From positions 23,963,934 to 24,027,933 of the forward strand of contig CM067298.1 of assembly GCA_034231615.1 (NCBI GenBank): DNA of 64,000 bases. Reading direction: 5' to 3'. A program made the translations under genes and the position numbers. The notes under the pieces were generated by a model. The model ran no database searches, was not told the DNA's origin, and saw only the letters and a program-made list of their open reading frames with translations. Shown here one piece after another: positions 3,735 to 63,600 of the stretch; position 1 is the stretch's first letter, and each line of letters starts with the position of its first letter. Source of the DNA: Meghimatium bilineatum. Taxonomy: Eukaryota; Mollusca; Gastropoda; Stylommatophora; Philomycidae.

Positions 3735-4440
3735 TCCAATGATGGACGAAATTACCCAGAACTGAATAGAGAAACAATCCTCCATCGACGGAAATCATTA
3801 CCGGAAGTCAACAACTTGAAAAGGCACACACACTTTCATATCTAGGAAGCAAATTAACACCTGGCGGTGACTAATGGCGATAAATTATAACTCGCATTGC
3901 AATAGTATCAAGTGACTTTAATAAACTGTCTAATATCTGGTAGTCAAAGTCAATCAGCACACTCACGAAAATGCGCTTATTTAATTCCTGCGTCATTCCG
4001 GGGCTGTCATATGGATGTGAGAGCTGGAAAAGTTCTTTTTTTCCCAGAAAAGAAAATATTGAGTTTCGAAAACAAATGCCTTCGTATGATAACTAACACC
4101 CACTGGAGCGAATTCAAATCGAACGAAAAAAAAATCAGAGAAGAAACACATCAAAACTACATCACAGATGTTATTAGAAAACGCCGTTGGTCCTACATCG
4201 AACATGTCCTATGTTCAGACAATAACAGAATACACCAACAATCTCTTGCATGGATACCAACAGGCAGAAGAACCATGAGTAGACCAAAGGAAACACTCAT
4301 AATAACAATACTTAAAGAAATTAAAACAAACAATATTCATACTATTCAAGAACTGTACAGAACAGCTTGGAACAGACAGAATTGGAGAGAACTGACCTCT
4401 GCCCCATGCGCTAACTTCAGCGCACAAGGAAAATGAAATA
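3735..4440 (+). mobile_element. LINE 3' end, family C
   Basis: The reading moves between frames at first (SLPEVNN, FSYLGSKLTPGG, then RLFNSCVIPGLSYGCESWK at about 3975-4030). It then settles into an open frame ending at 4436. This frame contains KILSFENKCLRMI, RRWSYIEHVL, GRRTMSRPKETL and LYRTAWNRQNWRELTSAPC. The order of pieces is that of the last third of an ORF2 protein: the segment after the RT, then the R-P-x-x-T and A-x-x-R-x-x-W-R tail. Methionine 3912 is only the first ATG of the open stretch. The element is 5'-truncated, and its 3' end abuts an opposite-strand SINE. Confidence 0.75.
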
Positions 4441-25855: not shown

Positions 25856-26014
25856 CTTCTTCTTCATTGTTCATTCTCAAACTCCTGCTGGCTCTCCCTT
25901 GTAGCAAGACCATTGTCCTACTAGATTTCTAGCAGGATGTAGTCCAGAGAATGGAAATGCGTTGTGTCGCCGTTTTATTTGCGCCAATGGCCCGACACAT
26001 CCGTCTTCGGCGGA
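25856..26014 (-). mobile_element. Short SINE-2 subfamily copy with target-site duplication
   Basis: On the minus strand it runs from CCGCCGAAGACGGATGTGTC through CTCTGGACTACATCCTGCT to GAGAATGAACAATGAAGAAG. TACTTTCATT at 25846-25855 and TACTGTCATT at 26015-26024 are the target-site duplication (one mismatch). It is inserted in the 27-bp minisatellite. Confidence 0.85.
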
Positions 26015-27219: not shown

Positions 27220-27380
27220 ACCGCCGTAGCCTGATGTGTCGGGCCACTGGAGCAAAAAAACGGCGACACAGCGCATATCCATTCTCTGGACTATATTCTG
27301 ATGGAAATCTAGTAGGGAGATCCCTAATCTACAAGGGAGATCCAGCCGGAGTTTGAGAATGAACGATGAAGAAGAAGAAG
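27220..27380 (+). mobile_element. Short SINE-2 subfamily copy
   Basis: It starts CCGCCGTAGCCTGATGTGTC, has ACACAGCGCATATCCATTC and TCTGGACTATATTCTG, and ends GAGAATGAACGATGAAGAAG + (AAG)n. Same extent as 25856-26014 and 42611-42765. No convincing target-site duplication. Confidence 0.8.
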
Positions 27381-27837
27381 ATTTATCAAAATAGTATTGT
27401 TTACGTCATTTTTTCTCAAATCTTCTTCCCTCCCCATTGTCAACTGTTGTCAAACTTCAGACCCCCTATTTATGACATAATTAATGGACGGTCCTTTAGC
27501 ATGTTTTGCTATGTGTGTGTATAACTGTGTGTACTGGTAGCATCAATCCATGCATCAGGATCCATGGGCTCATGCCCTTAGTACGGGAGCATACGATAAG
27601 AGCTTTTATAACACATAATATCGGAGCCGTTTTCTAAAAAGAACAGCAAAACATCGATATTTCAAATTTTATAAAAGGACAGAAGATAAAACATCTTTAT
27701 AGTTACCCAATAAATCATGAACAAGGAAGACGTTGAGCAGAAATAGTGTTATGTTGCAATAAAGAAATAATATTATAACATAAATCGTGTAAAACCGTAA
27801 CAAAGAAAGAGTGAAATCATAATAGAGAAGACGTCAA
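27381..27837. other. No gene recognised
   Basis: AT-rich. The last 60 bp (GTAAAACC, GTGAAATC) grade into the next array. Confidence 0.4.
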
Positions 27838-39889: not shown

Positions 39890-40020
39890 TGGAAAAGATA
39901 GATGTGTCTGGACATTGATGCAAATGAAAGCTATTGACACAGCGCATTTCCATTCCTGGATTATACCCTGCTCGACGTCTAATAGGGAATTTACACCGCT
40001 ACAAGAGAGATCCGGCGGAG
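39890..40020 (+). mobile_element. Diverged SINE-2 fragment
   Basis: ACACAGCGCATTTCCATTCC, TGGATTATACCCTGCT and ACAAGAGAGATCCGGCGGAG follow the order in 27220-27380. The 3' tail is missing. It ends next to the first bases of the 32-bp minisatellite unit. Confidence 0.6.
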
Positions 40021-40399
40021 TTGCTGCATACTACCCCATCGAGACCAGCACCGTGCAGTGATGATGGGGCTTAGTTCAGCCATCAGGGTCTGGAAACTAA
40101 GACTGGTCGGGCAGTCCCACTCGAGCAGGACCATAGTCCTGCCCAAGTAAGTAGAGTGCTGAAGACGGAGGCATCCAGCCAAAAGGCGCACAGATAATCA
40201 GGATACCACGCACAAAACACAATGGAAACATGTCTATATCTATAAATAGTTATGTGCCTGCCCTGTGGCGGACGTTCAGGCAGGGACGGTGCCGTGCCCT
40301 ATACCTCGAAAGGGCCCAACCTCAGTTACTGGAAGTCCTTCTCAATTGCCCCGAGGAGCCAGGAGGCAAGGGAATAGAGCTACTGGCCAAACAAACAAA

Positions 40400-41056
40400 C
40401 GACCAATAAAAATAATGCACTGGAATGCTGAGGGTGTCAACAGCAAAAGAGATGGATACAACAAAAAATTGGAACTTGAAAATGTCCTCAGTGAAGAACA
40501 AGTTAGTATATGCTGTATCCAAGAAACACACATCAGCAGCGACATAGCCTTCAAAATCAGAGGCTACCAGTGCTACCTGTCTGACCGAAATGACAGGCGA
40601 AAGGGTGGAATTCTGACACTTGTTAAAAACAATATCAGCGCATGTCAGCTGGAAGTATATATGGAAGGGGCAGAATACCAGATGCTCCACCTAAAAACAG
40701 ACAGTGCAGAATTCCATCTCCTGAACTACTACTGCCCAAATGAAAAACCATTAGCACTAGACACAATTCCAGACAAAGAGTGACTTATGGTGTGTGGTGA
40801 CTTCAACAGCCACTCTCAGAGCTGGGGCTACGATCATATCGACAAGAGAGGTGAGGAACTTGAGAGCTGGCAGGATGAAAATAATCTCATCCTTATTAAC
40901 CAGCCAGCAGACTCACCAACCTTCTACTCGAGAGCATGGCACACCACCTCTACACCATACCTGGCATTCCACTCACCAAGCTTGGAATGGAACATCACAC
41001 GTGTCATTGGAAAGCAGCTTGGAGGTAGTGACCACAGACCAGTATTTCTGGAAATC
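40400..41056 (+). pseudogene. LINE E APE-type endonuclease domain (broken)
   Basis: This domain nicks target DNA to prime reverse transcription. Visible motifs in order: MHWNAEGVNSKR at 40418; IQETH (catalytic Glu) near 40515-40530; GGILTLVKNN; YYCPNE; GDFNSHSQSWG (catalytic Asp/Asn) at 40796-40830; TPYLAFHSPS near 40950-40980; and GGSDHRPVFLEI (Asp-His pair) at about 41021-41056. A TGA at 40781-40783 splits it just before MVCGDFN, probably a TGG-to-TGA change. In this family the TPYLAF site normally has Asp where this copy has Tyr (family knowledge), so the site looks mutated. No in-frame ATG lies directly upstream; the start is unknown. Confidence 0.85.
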
Positions 41057-41699
41057 CACAATGAATTTACCAAGGACAGCAGCACGCTCACTAGGTGGAA
41101 CTATAAAAGGGCAGACTGGAAAATGTACCAGCATTTAACCAGTGTTCTAGCTAAGGACATGAACTTGGAAAAAGACATCAATAGAGCAGTGAGTGAATTT
41201 AATAGATGTATACTACATGCTGCTAGTAAAACCATACCCAGGGGGGCACGCAAAAACTACAAACCCTACTGGAATGATGAACTGGAAAAGCTGCAAAATG
41301 AGATGGAAACATCTAGACAGCAGGCTGAGAACAGACCTAGCCAAGAACGTCACAACAAATATCAGCAAACAAAGGCTAAATTTCAAAGAGCCAAGTTACA
41401 AGCCAGACGGAGCAGCTGGAAAGAAAAAACAGTCGCTGTTCCTAGAAAGAGATACTAGGAAATTATGGAAACTTGTATAACAACTAAATGATGAAGGTAC
41501 ATGGAGAAATACCAGGATCACACTTTATAAAGATAGAAACATTTTAACAGGTAAACATGCAGCTGATTACTTTGCAGATTCCGTTGCAGAAGACAATAAC
41601 GTCAAAGTCAGCCCAGACAAACAACAGGAGGTTCGAGAGAACCAGCAAAACATTGGACAAGGCGAACCTATACCTGAAGTCATAGAGGCACCAATCACA

Positions 41700-43000
41700 A
41701 TGAGAGAACTGGAGCATGCAATATCCAAATTGAAAATGAAAAAGTCCCCTGGAGCTGATGGAGTGTCCAATGAAATGATTAGAAACCTGGGAATTGCAGC
41801 AAGAGCAAAGCTACTGCAGATTTTTAACACAAGCTGGTCCACAGGTAATGTACCACAGGCGTGGAGAGAAGCAATAATGATACCACTCCTCAAATCAGGA
41901 AAAGATGGCAACACAGTCTCCAACTACAGGCCCATCAGCCTCATAAGCTGTCTATGTAAAACAATGGAACGCATTATCAATCTTAGGATGCAGTGGTACA
42001 TTGAAAGTGAAAACCTTCTGGTATCACAGCAAGCAGGTTTAAGACAGTGCTACTCTACTGAAGCATTTGATAAGGTCTGGAAAGAAGGACTCCTAAAGAA
42101 ATTGCGAAATTGCAGGGTTAGCTCAAGAATGTACAAATGGGTAAAAGCATACCTGCATAATAGAAGAGCCAGGGTACAATTAGATGGTCGCAAGAGCAAG
42201 AAAGTTCTACTGCGTCATGGAGTCCCCCAAGGAGGAGTCCTGTCTCCCACACTTTTCTTGGTTTACATCAATGACCTAGTTGCTGAACTACCACACGGGA
42301 TCAAAGTGGCAATGTATGCTGACGACCTGGTGATCTGGTGCACGGAAGAACATGCAACAGTGGCCACTAAACAAATACAAAGACCTATCGATGCCCTAAC
42401 CTTATGGGCAAATAGATGGTGTGTCAGCATTAACACAGATAAGTGCAGCACTACACTCTTTACCCTCTCACCAAAACAAAAATCTGGTCATATCAAGATA
42501 GATGGAGAGCTCTTGAAAGAAGACAAACAACCCACATACCTCGGAGTTACTTTTGATGATAAGCTGACATGGAAGCAGCACATAAACAAAGCAACAACAA
42601 AAGCCAGGAACCCGCCGAAGACGGATGTGTCGGGCCATTGGCGCAAATAAAACGGCGACACAACGCATTTCCATTTTCTGGACTACATCCTGCTGGAAAT
42701 CTAGCAGGACCATGATCCAGCTAGATCCAGTTGGAGTTTGAGAATGAACGCAGAAGGAGAAGAAGAAAATCCAGGAAGAAGTTAGCTATCCTGAGAAAAC
42801 TAAGTGGAACCACATGGGGAGCCAGTGGAAATATACTCAGTAAAGTTTACCAGCAAGGCATAAGACCACACCTGGAATATGGTTCAGCTGCGTGGTGTCC
42901 TGCATCAAACACCACATTACAAGATCTAGATAAAGTGCAAAACCAGGCACTTAGAATAATGTTGGGAGCAATGAAATCAACACCCATAGCAGAGATGCAG
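41700..43000 (+). pseudogene. LINE E reverse transcriptase (deleted and SINE-interrupted)
   Basis: Motifs: SPGADGVSNEMIRNLG near 41747; NYRPISLISCLCKTMERIIN near 41920-41980; HGVPQGGVLSPTLFLVYIND (motif B) near 42217-42275; MYADDLVIW (motif C), with YADD at 42315-42326; PTYLGVTFDDKLTW near 42532. After the SINE come RKKLAILRKLSGTTWG and RPHLEYGSAAW. Between STE and AFDKVWKEG (about 42058-42065) roughly 25-30 residues present in relatives are missing, in frame, including the motif A catalytic aspartate. The second open stretch (from 42731) begins with residues from SINE DNA (EFENERRRRRR), not from the LINE. Confidence 0.88.
42611..42765 (+). mobile_element. Short SINE-2 subfamily copy inside LINE E, 12-bp target-site duplication
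   Basis: AAAAGCCAGGAA at 42599-42610 and AAAATCCAGGAA at 42766-42777 are the duplicated target (one mismatch). Removing the element restores the LINE reading ATTKARKKLAIL. The element starts CCCGCCGAAGACGGATGTGT, contains TCTGGACTACATCCTGCTGG, and ends GAGAATGAACGCAGAAGGAG + AAGAAG. Confidence 0.93.
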
Positions 43001-43354
43001 AAAATGGGAAGAATGCAAACACTTGGCGAACGCAGAGACACAAAAGTACTAATTCAAGCAGAAAATTTTCAGTGTATGCCTAGTCATCCAATGAAGGAAA
43101 GATTCCAAAATCTAGCAATGGGGCGACTGAAAAGGAGCAGCTTTATCCATCAAGCTAAACGACTCCGTAGACAACTTACAGACCTACCTGAAGTTGACAG
43201 CCCCTTAAGGTCTGTACCAGAACAAACCCCGTGGAGTGAAAGCCATGGAATGCCAATATACATTCAAACCCATGTGAAAGGAATACTAAGCGAGGACGAA
43301 CTGAACAGTGTGCAGCGAAGGACAGTCACCCTCAGTTTCCTGGATGAGGAATAT

Positions 43355-44115
43355 CCACAAGATATATGGGTCAGTGTGTACACAGATGGGTCAGCACAGA
43401 ATGCTGTGAGGAATGGATGTGCAGGTGTATATATAGAATATCCACACAAGCCTAGAGATACAATCAGAACACCAGAAAAATTCTGCAATAATTATGATGC
43501 AGAAATCAAGGCAATTAGTGTGGCAGCTAAAAAACTGCTGAATTCCAACTCTGGCCTACAGCCTGTGGTATTCCTAACAGATGCAAGGTCAGTGCTTCAA
43601 GCTCTCCAGTCTGGAAAACTAACAGACTTGAAAAAACTACTTAGCGAATTGTCTTACCAGTATAGTGGATACCCTCTCACAATGGAATACAAGGAAATGA
43701 AAAAGCAGACCAACTGGCTAAGGAAGGTGCTGCCGAAGACCAACCAGATGTACCAATCACCTACCATCAGAAAAAACAGATGATCAAGTCAATAAGAAAG
43801 CCACAAACACCAACACAAGATGACTATCACATTATGAACAGATCAGAACAAGTTATAATTCTACGTCTCAGAACAGGACACAACCGACTCCGCAGTCACA
43901 TGTATACAAAGTTCAAGATTGGTAACACGGCCATGTGTACATGTGGACAGGCAGTACAGAGTGCCAAACATATACTTCAAGAGTGTTCTGAGCATGAAAC
44001 GCTGAGGCAGACATATTGGCCAGAGGAAACAACACTGGAATCAAAACTCTATGGGACACTGTATGAACTACAAAAGACAGTGAGTTTTATTAAGGAGACA
44101 GAATTACAGATATAG
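43355..44115 (+). pseudogene. LINE E RNase H domain and C-terminal Cys/His motif (frameshifted)
   Basis: RNase H removes RNA from the RNA/DNA hybrid during second-strand synthesis. Visible: VSVYTDGSAQNA (first Asp, near 43385), NNYDAEIKAI (Glu, near 43500), FLTDARSVLQAL (Asp, near 43575). After a frame change comes GNEKADQLAKEGAAEDQPD (final Asp, about 43695-43750). The conserved His region (S/AHCGI-type in relatives) is not visible, apparently lost in a small deletion next to the frameshift. The next open frame from 43780 has LRTGHNRLRSHMYT and CTCGQAVQSAKHILQEC and ends QKTVSFIKETELQI at 44115. Confidence 0.85.
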
Positions 44116-44159
44116 ACATGTTTCAAGTGAACGAAAGAAGAAAAAGAAGCTACATACTA

Positions 44160-62170: not shown

Positions 62171-62527
62171 TGTCAGATGTATTTGAAGTTACAAATGTCG
62201 TCACACAGGGTTGCATGGACACCCCAACATATTTCAGCATGATGTACATTGCCCTGCTCATGGACAGTCGCCAGGGTTGTAAAAATGACGGAGTAAAAAT
62301 AAATATAGGACAGATGGAAATATATTAATCTTAGACGACTACAAGCATTCAAAATAGTGAAAGAGATAGCTATCACATATCTGCTGTTTGCTGATGACTG
62401 CGCACTAATTGCCAGTTCCGAAAAAAAGACATACAAGCCAGCATGGACATGTTTCCTACAGCGTGTGACATGTTTGGCTTGACCATCAATACCAAGAAAA
62501 TGGAGGTAATGTTTCAACTCTCTTCCA

Positions 62528-62914
62528 CCCCATCAAGGCCAGCACCGTGCAGTGGTGATGGGGCTTAGTTCAGCCACCAGGGGCTGGAAACTAAGACTGG
62601 TCGGGCTGTCCCATTCGAGCAGGACCATAGTCCTGCCCAAGTAAGCAGAGTGCTGAAGACGGAGGCATCCAGCCAAAAGGCGCACAGATAATCAGGATGC
62701 CACGCACACAACACAACGGAAACATGTCTGTATCTATAAAAAGTTATGGTGCCTGCCCTGTGGCGGACGTTCAGGCAGGGACGGTGCCGGGCCCTATACC
62801 TCGAAAGGGCCCAACCTCAGACACTGTATGAACTACAAAAGACAGTGAGTTTTATTAAGGAGACAGTATTACAGATATAGACATGTTTCAAGTGAACGAA
62901 AGAAGAAGAAGAAG
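62528..62914 (+). mobile_element. 387-bp internally deleted LINE E (5' end fused to 3' end), own target-site duplication
   Basis: 62528-62820 matches the first 292 bp of LINE E (40034-40325), starting at the same CCCCATC. 62821-62914 matches its last 93 bp (44056-44148), ending in (GAA)n. The junction is CCCAACCTCAG|ACACTGTATG, so all coding sequence is gone. AACTCTCTTCCA (62516-62527) and AACTCTATTCCA (62915-62926) flank it, a 12-bp duplication with one mismatch. It was therefore inserted as a unit by target-primed reverse transcription, into the family D LINE, and was not formed by a deletion in place. It keeps whatever promoter the leader has and the 3' end recognised by the LINE machinery. 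Confidence 0.93.
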
Positions 62915-63600
62915 AACTCTATTCCAGTACCCTGGCCTAGCTATTAAGGTCAATATCTATAGTCTCTTACCAGTCTACAGATTCACTTATCTTAGTAAAA
63001 CTCTCTCCAGGGCTGATGACATTGATGTCGAAATCAACAAAATAATCTCTAGGCGACTTGCATTTGACAGACTGAGAAACATTGTGAACGGAAGAGTATT
63101 AACATGGCCACAAAATTAAGTCTGTCGCGCCATTATATTCACTACCTCGCTATACGATGAGACCTGGACAGTGTGCATCAGACACACCAGACAGTTAAAT
63201 CACGATACTGCATCACATAGATTTTTCATAGAATGCCCAACTGATACGGGTATGTGTGCATGTATGATACATGCATCCAGAAAATGCTTATGTTTGGTGA
63301 GTTCTTCAAAATGAAAACAAATGCCCGGTGGATAGAAGAGTCACGCTCGAAGTGTTTTTTAAGACCTTCAGCATCGACGTCACAGTCTGTCGCTCAGAAT
63401 CTATCAGTGTGATGCAGCAACGCCAGCAAAGGTGCTTGCATCGCTGAGAAGCATCTAATTTCAGACACACTGGGAAACGTGCTGCCAGAAAAAACACAAA
63501 AACGAAGACATAGACGCCCAACTATGATTATGTGTGTCTCAAATCTGGCAGATATTTTTGGTTTGTATTATTACATTACATCATTTGCGATTATTTAATT

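Follow-up and report, generated by a model that had tools for sequence, protein, structure and literature searches.

Background

Short elements that keep the two ends of a LINE while lacking its open reading frame are known as SIDEs, a term used for the trypanosome elements (PMC4035085). Known examples include RIME, NARTc, Ag-Sponge, the R2 SIDEs and Persaeus, and such elements have been described as rare (PMC3414825, PMC6740152). The element described here, S, occupies positions 62528–62914 of the window, the whole 64,000-nucleotide stretch of DNA that was analysed. Judged from its sequence it is a SIDE of a LINE family for which the full-length copy in the window, LINE E, serves as reference.

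The trypanosome pairs RIME/ingi and NARTc/L1Tc likewise consist of a short deleted element and a partner LINE encoding endonuclease, reverse transcriptase (RT) and RNase H, and the 5' end with its HDV-like ribozyme is common to both partners, as is predicted here (PMC4035085). Ribozyme activity has been proven for the trypanosome elements (PMC4035085) and is only predicted for S, and in contrast to RIME and NARTc many junctions coexist here in one genome. The R2 SIDEs of Drosophila also combine an HDV-like ribozyme with a LINE 3' end and are mobilised in trans, but they are located in 28S genes, are old and stem from four separate events across species (PMC3414825), whereas the SIDEs of the LINE E family are dispersed insertions with mostly private junctions. 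Persaeus of Lepidoptera and its LINE partner Zenon share with the present case the dispersed SIDEs, several independent origins and a variable 5' break point (PMC6740152). Those origins, at least four, were counted between host lineages, the copies within a species clustering together, and the middle of Persaeus is unrelated sequence (PMC6740152); here the many junctions lie inside one genome and the ends are directly joined in nearly all parsed copies. A ribozyme in Persaeus/Zenon is not mentioned in the available part of PMC6740152.

The short element and its insertion site

The features of the locus are as follows:

62516..62527, plus strand: left target duplication, AACTCTCTTCCA
62528..62914, plus strand: S, a SIDE in which a LINE leader is fused to a LINE 3' end, with a (GAA)n tail (BLASTN against LINE E; genomic matches)
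62820..62821, plus strand: point at which leader and 3' end meet (three exact occurrences of the 22-nt junction in the genome)
62915..62926, plus strand: right target duplication, AACTCTATTCCA

S is 387 bp in length. Using BLASTN, its bases 1–299 were aligned to LINE E 1–298 (94.3% identity over 299 columns, with one gap) and its bases 293–386 to LINE E 4022–4115 (97.9% over 94 columns), in agreement with an earlier sequence-only reading of this DNA, in which the first ~292 bp and the last ~93 bp of LINE E were said to be joined. That reading was likewise correct about the CCCCATC start, the (GAA)n end and a junction between 62820 and 62821. The 12-bp target-site duplication that it reported is present, though with one mismatch between AACTCTCTTCCA and AACTCTATTCCA, and its view of S as a non-autonomous LINE derivative, lacking the interior but retaining both the 5' leader and the 3' end, is supported.

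All 40 scored genomic matches to S, taken from 2198 first-look candidates, were significant. The host site is another RT-like repeat: 38 of the 40 scored matches to the joined flanks are uninterrupted paralogues without an insert, 74–83% identical, and the remaining two are the window's own halves. The deletion and the insertion of this copy may have been one single event.

The parent LINE

40034..44148, plus strand: LINE E, a full-length copy of the kind from which S derives (pieces of endonuclease, RT and RNase H, their frames broken), interrupted by a second short repeat

LINE E is 4115 bp long; beyond LINE position 290 the first ATG comes at 382, and the last coding frame ends at window position 44115. 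Endonuclease, RT and RNase H domains were all three detected. Membership of the Ingi clade is defined by these domains together with a place inside the clade in an RT phylogeny, and LINE E is a candidate member; in some gastropods Ingi elements occur frequently (PMC11203168). The genome contains 3,451 exact occurrences of a 21-mer from the leader end and 15,868 of one from the 3' end, so that most 3' ends are without a leader or have an altered one.

On its minus strand the window contains a further member of the LINE E family, truncated at the 5' end (7139–6282; 88% identity to the last ~850 bp of LINE E). The second short repeat, of about 155 bp (GAATGAACG..GAAGAAGAA), lies inside LINE E at 42612–42768 and elsewhere in the window at 26013–25849, 27221–27381 and 24246–24169, with a weaker match at 39895–39981. 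It has a (GAA)n-like end, a body unlike LINE E and a 3' end resembling the LINE E tail, and is possibly a SINE exploiting a related LINE.

Predicted ribozyme and classification

HDV-like ribozymes possess a nested P1-P2-P3-P4 fold starting from the cleavage site, with C-N-R-A in J4/2. The first 75 bases of S have this layout and are predicted to self-cleave; cleavage would be expected just before 62528, with base 64 as the candidate catalytic C.

62528..62602, plus strand: predicted HDV-like ribozyme (P1 CCCCATC/GATGGGG, P2 GGCCAG/CTGGTC, P3 ACC/GGT, P4 CAGCC/GGCTG, J4/2 with ACTAAGA)

The descriptor, which was composed after S had been inspected, fits only base 1 of S on both strands of the window, plus a one-base shift. 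It fits base 1 in 41 of 61 copies, at none of 199,908 flank positions and in none of 20,000 shuffles; in its strict form it fails in 20 of the 61 copies and in LINE E itself.

No HDV match was obtained in an Rfam search of S. The three matches that it did give were all to lncRNA models below their gathering scores, so S was not assigned to a known Rfam family, and there were no tRNA, 7SL or 5S matches up to an E-value of 5. ARAGORN found no tRNA gene in 62400–63000, and a B-box pattern had no match in copy L002 with up to one mismatch allowed. The Pol III-derived head (tRNA, 7SL or 5S) that defines a SINE was thus not found in these searches. "SINE-like", as S had been called, suits its size and its dependence in trans and nothing further, there being neither a tRNA gene nor an Rfam match at gathering score. 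By its structure S belongs with the SIDEs: it joins LINE 5' and 3' ends without the ORF, and 54 of 61 copies are insertions with target duplications and a LINE 3' tail.

Copy number and junction diversity

Since S-shaped elements had been proposed to form a family of their own if they shared one junction, the 1.6-Gb genome was searched with the exact 22-nt junction of the window. It occurs three times, not many, and with 75 junctions in 107 copies the proposed single propagating family is not supported. The three exact-junction copies have no private substitution common to all of them, junction letters aside, and one common to two. The expectation that such elements are multicopy was borne out, with more than 100 similar elements and 107 parsed copies.

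The best 40 matches to S already contain many differing junctions, these first copies having been picked by similarity to S and so biased toward short spacers. In total, 107 insert-free parsed copies, from three successive batches (56 + 31 + 20), gave 75 distinct junctions after equivalent positions had been collapsed. The first batch left out L019, which lacked a recognisable anchor, and, because of inserts that could not be parsed, 6 of 62 junctions. The second, a pattern batch of 64 rows, had 33 with a readable junction, two of which were dropped as misparsed indels to leave 31; of its other 31 rows, 20 were fetched later, two (L095, L120) were already included and nine were unread. From the 26 rows of the last batch four with inserts and two duplicates were removed, leaving 20.

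In the 107 parsed copies the 5' breakpoints fall at LINE positions 291–378 (the ATG being at 382) and the 3' breakpoints at 3937–4045 of 4115, while a few copies with longer spacers (bins 184–214 and 450–480) fall outside these ranges. As read from these copies, the many junctions of the LINE E family SIDEs take out almost all of the ORF but hardly anything more. Searches with one constant pair of anchors and a gap between them, in spacer bins 30–31 nt wide, gave 31 copies for spacers of 0–30, 13 for 31–60, 27 for 61–91, 37 for 92–122, 21 for 123–153, 9 for 184–214 and 3 for 450–480, the counts being without bin 154–183. The first five bins (0–153) total 129, and the genome holds at least 129 exact-anchor copies. 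Bins 123–153, 184–214 and 450–480 are counts only, with L113 alone parsed, and the anchors are blind to 5' breakpoints below 292 (one such copy, L019, was seen) and to 3' breakpoints above 4045. Two copies in bin 184–214 join early 5'UTR to sequence deeper in the ORF, which indicates that the 3' limit is not absolute.

Of 23 copies found without a 5'-end requirement, 22 start no more than 3 nt away from the first base of S. Target duplications scoring at least 7 were found in 54 of 61 copies versus 5 of 305 mismatched-pair controls. Two pairs of copies, L187/L188 on contig 10 and L189/L190 on contig 15, have the same junction, flanks and target duplication; because the flanks are identical the surrounding DNA must have been duplicated, and these were set aside as segmental duplicates, not transposition.

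Leader copies in map order

As a sample that had not been picked for deletions, the first 46 leader copies along contig 1 were followed over ~530 nt of downstream sequence. Forty run on as LINE and six are whole-ORF deletions, with six different junctions (5' breakpoints 301–376, 3' breakpoints 3951–4033); within that distance none of the 46 jumps to any other part of the LINE. Were the 5' breakpoints uniform over 293–802, the probability of all six falling before the ATG would be 3e-5. Of 34 contiguous copies that were followed to the expected distance, 32 have LINE 3' sequence there (31 within 6 nt of the LINE end, L109 within 35 nt), several of them 30–155 nt short; L115 has a same-strand 3' 21-mer 5.1 kb downstream, and L093 gave no assignable 3' end. 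The sampled leader copies are thus nearly all either about full length or ORF-less. The SIDE share of 13% (5–26%), extrapolated from one stretch of one contig to the 3,451 leader occurrences, would correspond to some 450 SIDEs.

Phylogeny of the leaders

Two trees of leader sequences were examined for changes of label between LINE and SIDE. The first, with 81 leaders (66 SIDE and 15 LINE rows), requires 10 such changes, five of them forced by well-supported branches; the second, with 100 leaders (86 SIDE, 14 LINE; without L094), requires 11, three of them forced. Both trees have limited support: stars mark 9 of 75 inner branches in the first and 11 of 95 in the second, and the bootstraps were still unsettled. 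The SIDEs interleave with LINEs of different subfamilies, and the leader of SIDE L059 is identical to those of LINEs L088, L089 and L097. Even copies with the same junction do not always group in the second tree: the two rows with n5.7/n3.16 need two changes, both forced, and the six with n5.5/n3.13 need five, two of them forced. Since a SIDE would be unable to regain an ORF alone, the label changes are best read as separate losses, and the data strongly suggest that the LINE E SIDEs had many separate origins instead of spreading from one deleted ancestor.

Some copies nevertheless do appear to descend from a common deleted ancestor, as indicated by clustered junction classes. L004, L012, L014 and L015 group together with moderate support and have four different target duplications, from which it follows that the deleted unit was probably transposed there; L026, L037 and L060 form another clustered class. 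Mobilisation of a SIDE unit in trans is thus plausible for the four-copy class, and to that extent the suggestion that the element "moved as a unit" holds, while for the window copy it is unproven.

These classes, and the different target duplications within the first, are what would be expected if a few early SIDE masters had spread in trans and later small deletions had diversified their junctions, as proposed for the R2 SIDEs (PMC3414825). As a general explanation this is unlikely: the trees mix SIDEs with LINEs from different subfamilies, the leader of one SIDE equals those of three LINEs, and the six map-order SIDEs show six junctions. Nor did any of the parsed copies retain long portions of both the 5' and the 3' side, such as could have yielded the others step by step, although the long-spacer bins were mostly counted only.

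Proposed mechanism of origin

The reading preferred here, at a probability of roughly 0.55, is that most SIDEs arise anew during target-primed reverse transcription. The RT would start at the (GAA)n 3' end, copy roughly 70–180 nt and then jump into a 5'UTR, either that of the RNA being copied or that of a second LINE RNA; copying would proceed to the RNA 5' end, whose exact position the predicted HDV-like ribozyme would define, and insertion of the product would create a target duplication of the normal kind. The 5'UTR and the 3' end may be kept near each other by base pairing or by a protein bound to both, which would make jumps arrive ahead of the ORF, and SIDEs with both ends may occasionally be remobilised in trans. 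A jump during insertion fits the pre-ORF and near-3'-end breakpoints, the normal target duplications and the many private junctions. The model is drawn from genomic sequence.

Two stretches of S could provide such pairing:

62719..62734, plus strand: 5' arm of a predicted panhandle (complementarity, folding, cofolding)
62874..62889, plus strand: 3' arm of the predicted panhandle (complementarity, folding, cofolding)

In LINE E, positions 192–207 and 4076–4091 are perfectly complementary over 16 nt, and its ends cofold at -19.1 kcal/mol versus -7.0 (sd 2.7, best -13.0) in 60 shuffles of the 3' end. S itself folds into a panhandle (z -4.0), one of 100 shuffles being equally stable. Pairing that is perfect over all 16 nt belongs to LINE E; in other copies the 5' arm differs at one or two bases, often leaving a G-U pair or a mismatch, and none of the copies compared has a change that compensates. 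The 11-nt pairing core is broken in one of 13 LINE copies in which both arms were found. These uncompensated changes and the broken core count against a selected function of the panhandle.

At the junctions, microhomology averages 1.04 versus a null of 0.82, with ~5% of shuffles as high; an analytic null also shows an excess. It is slight, and a strong dependence on microhomology is disfavoured. So is a strong dependence on predicted RNA accessibility, which explains little, values as high being obtained in 36% (5' side) and 2.6% (3' side) of draws. Repeated 5' breakpoints were observed at TACT/GG, which is present twice in the 5'UTR (LINE E 297–298 and 351–352), and repeated 3' breakpoints before TATGAAC and AACTAC; these positions are possible jump hotspots. 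Jumping non-LTR enzymes can add non-templated nucleotides (PMC6740152), and the absence of clear additions of this kind at nearly all junctions counts against the jump.

So does the fact that a deletion at the DNA level, removing the middle of a full-length LINE after insertion, would leave an identical target duplication. The two arms form a distant inverted repeat in DNA, and the slight microhomology excess points the same way. However, such deletions would not be expected to end with this regularity immediately ahead of the start codon and close to the 3' end; the 46 map-order leaders include no jump to another LINE part within ~530 nt, and bin 450–480 holds three copies against 13–37 in the short bins. 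Post-insertion deletion is considered unlikely, slightly more so than the early masters. Splicing of LINE RNA from 5'UTR to 3' end before reverse transcription, as in the human SpIREs (PMC5860796), would likewise join both ends in one step but is highly improbable, since only 2 of 75 distinct junctions fit GT/GC-AG boundaries.

The jump during target-primed reverse transcription has a parallel outside retrotransposons. In RNA viruses, polymerase jumping produces defective genomes that keep the ends and lose the coding middle, with heterogeneous joins and complementary ends. The analogy is one of process only, LINE E being a non-LTR retrotransposon. A bolder form of the jump model, in which defective genomes are made routinely, the panhandle steers the jump over the whole ORF and about an eighth of the insertions with a leader are new elements without a gene, each with a join of its own and able to parasitise the parent, is offered tentatively and is more doubtful than the jump itself.

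Conclusions

SIDEs are an already known kind of element; the new aspect is the many private-junction deletions of the whole ORF within one genome. No report of many such deletions from one LINE family in one genome was found in the open-licence literature (subscription papers lying mostly outside it), and nothing was found there that ties the term "defective interfering" to retrotransposons. Because one genome offers 129 or more exact-anchor copies and 75 distinct junctions, the statistics of breakpoints can be read jointly with the target duplications and with the recurrence among LINE subfamilies, which bears on whether SIDEs are formed by template jump or by DNA recombination. If the jump model is true, the RNA ends stay close during target-primed reverse transcription, and the LINE would continually spawn its own parasites.
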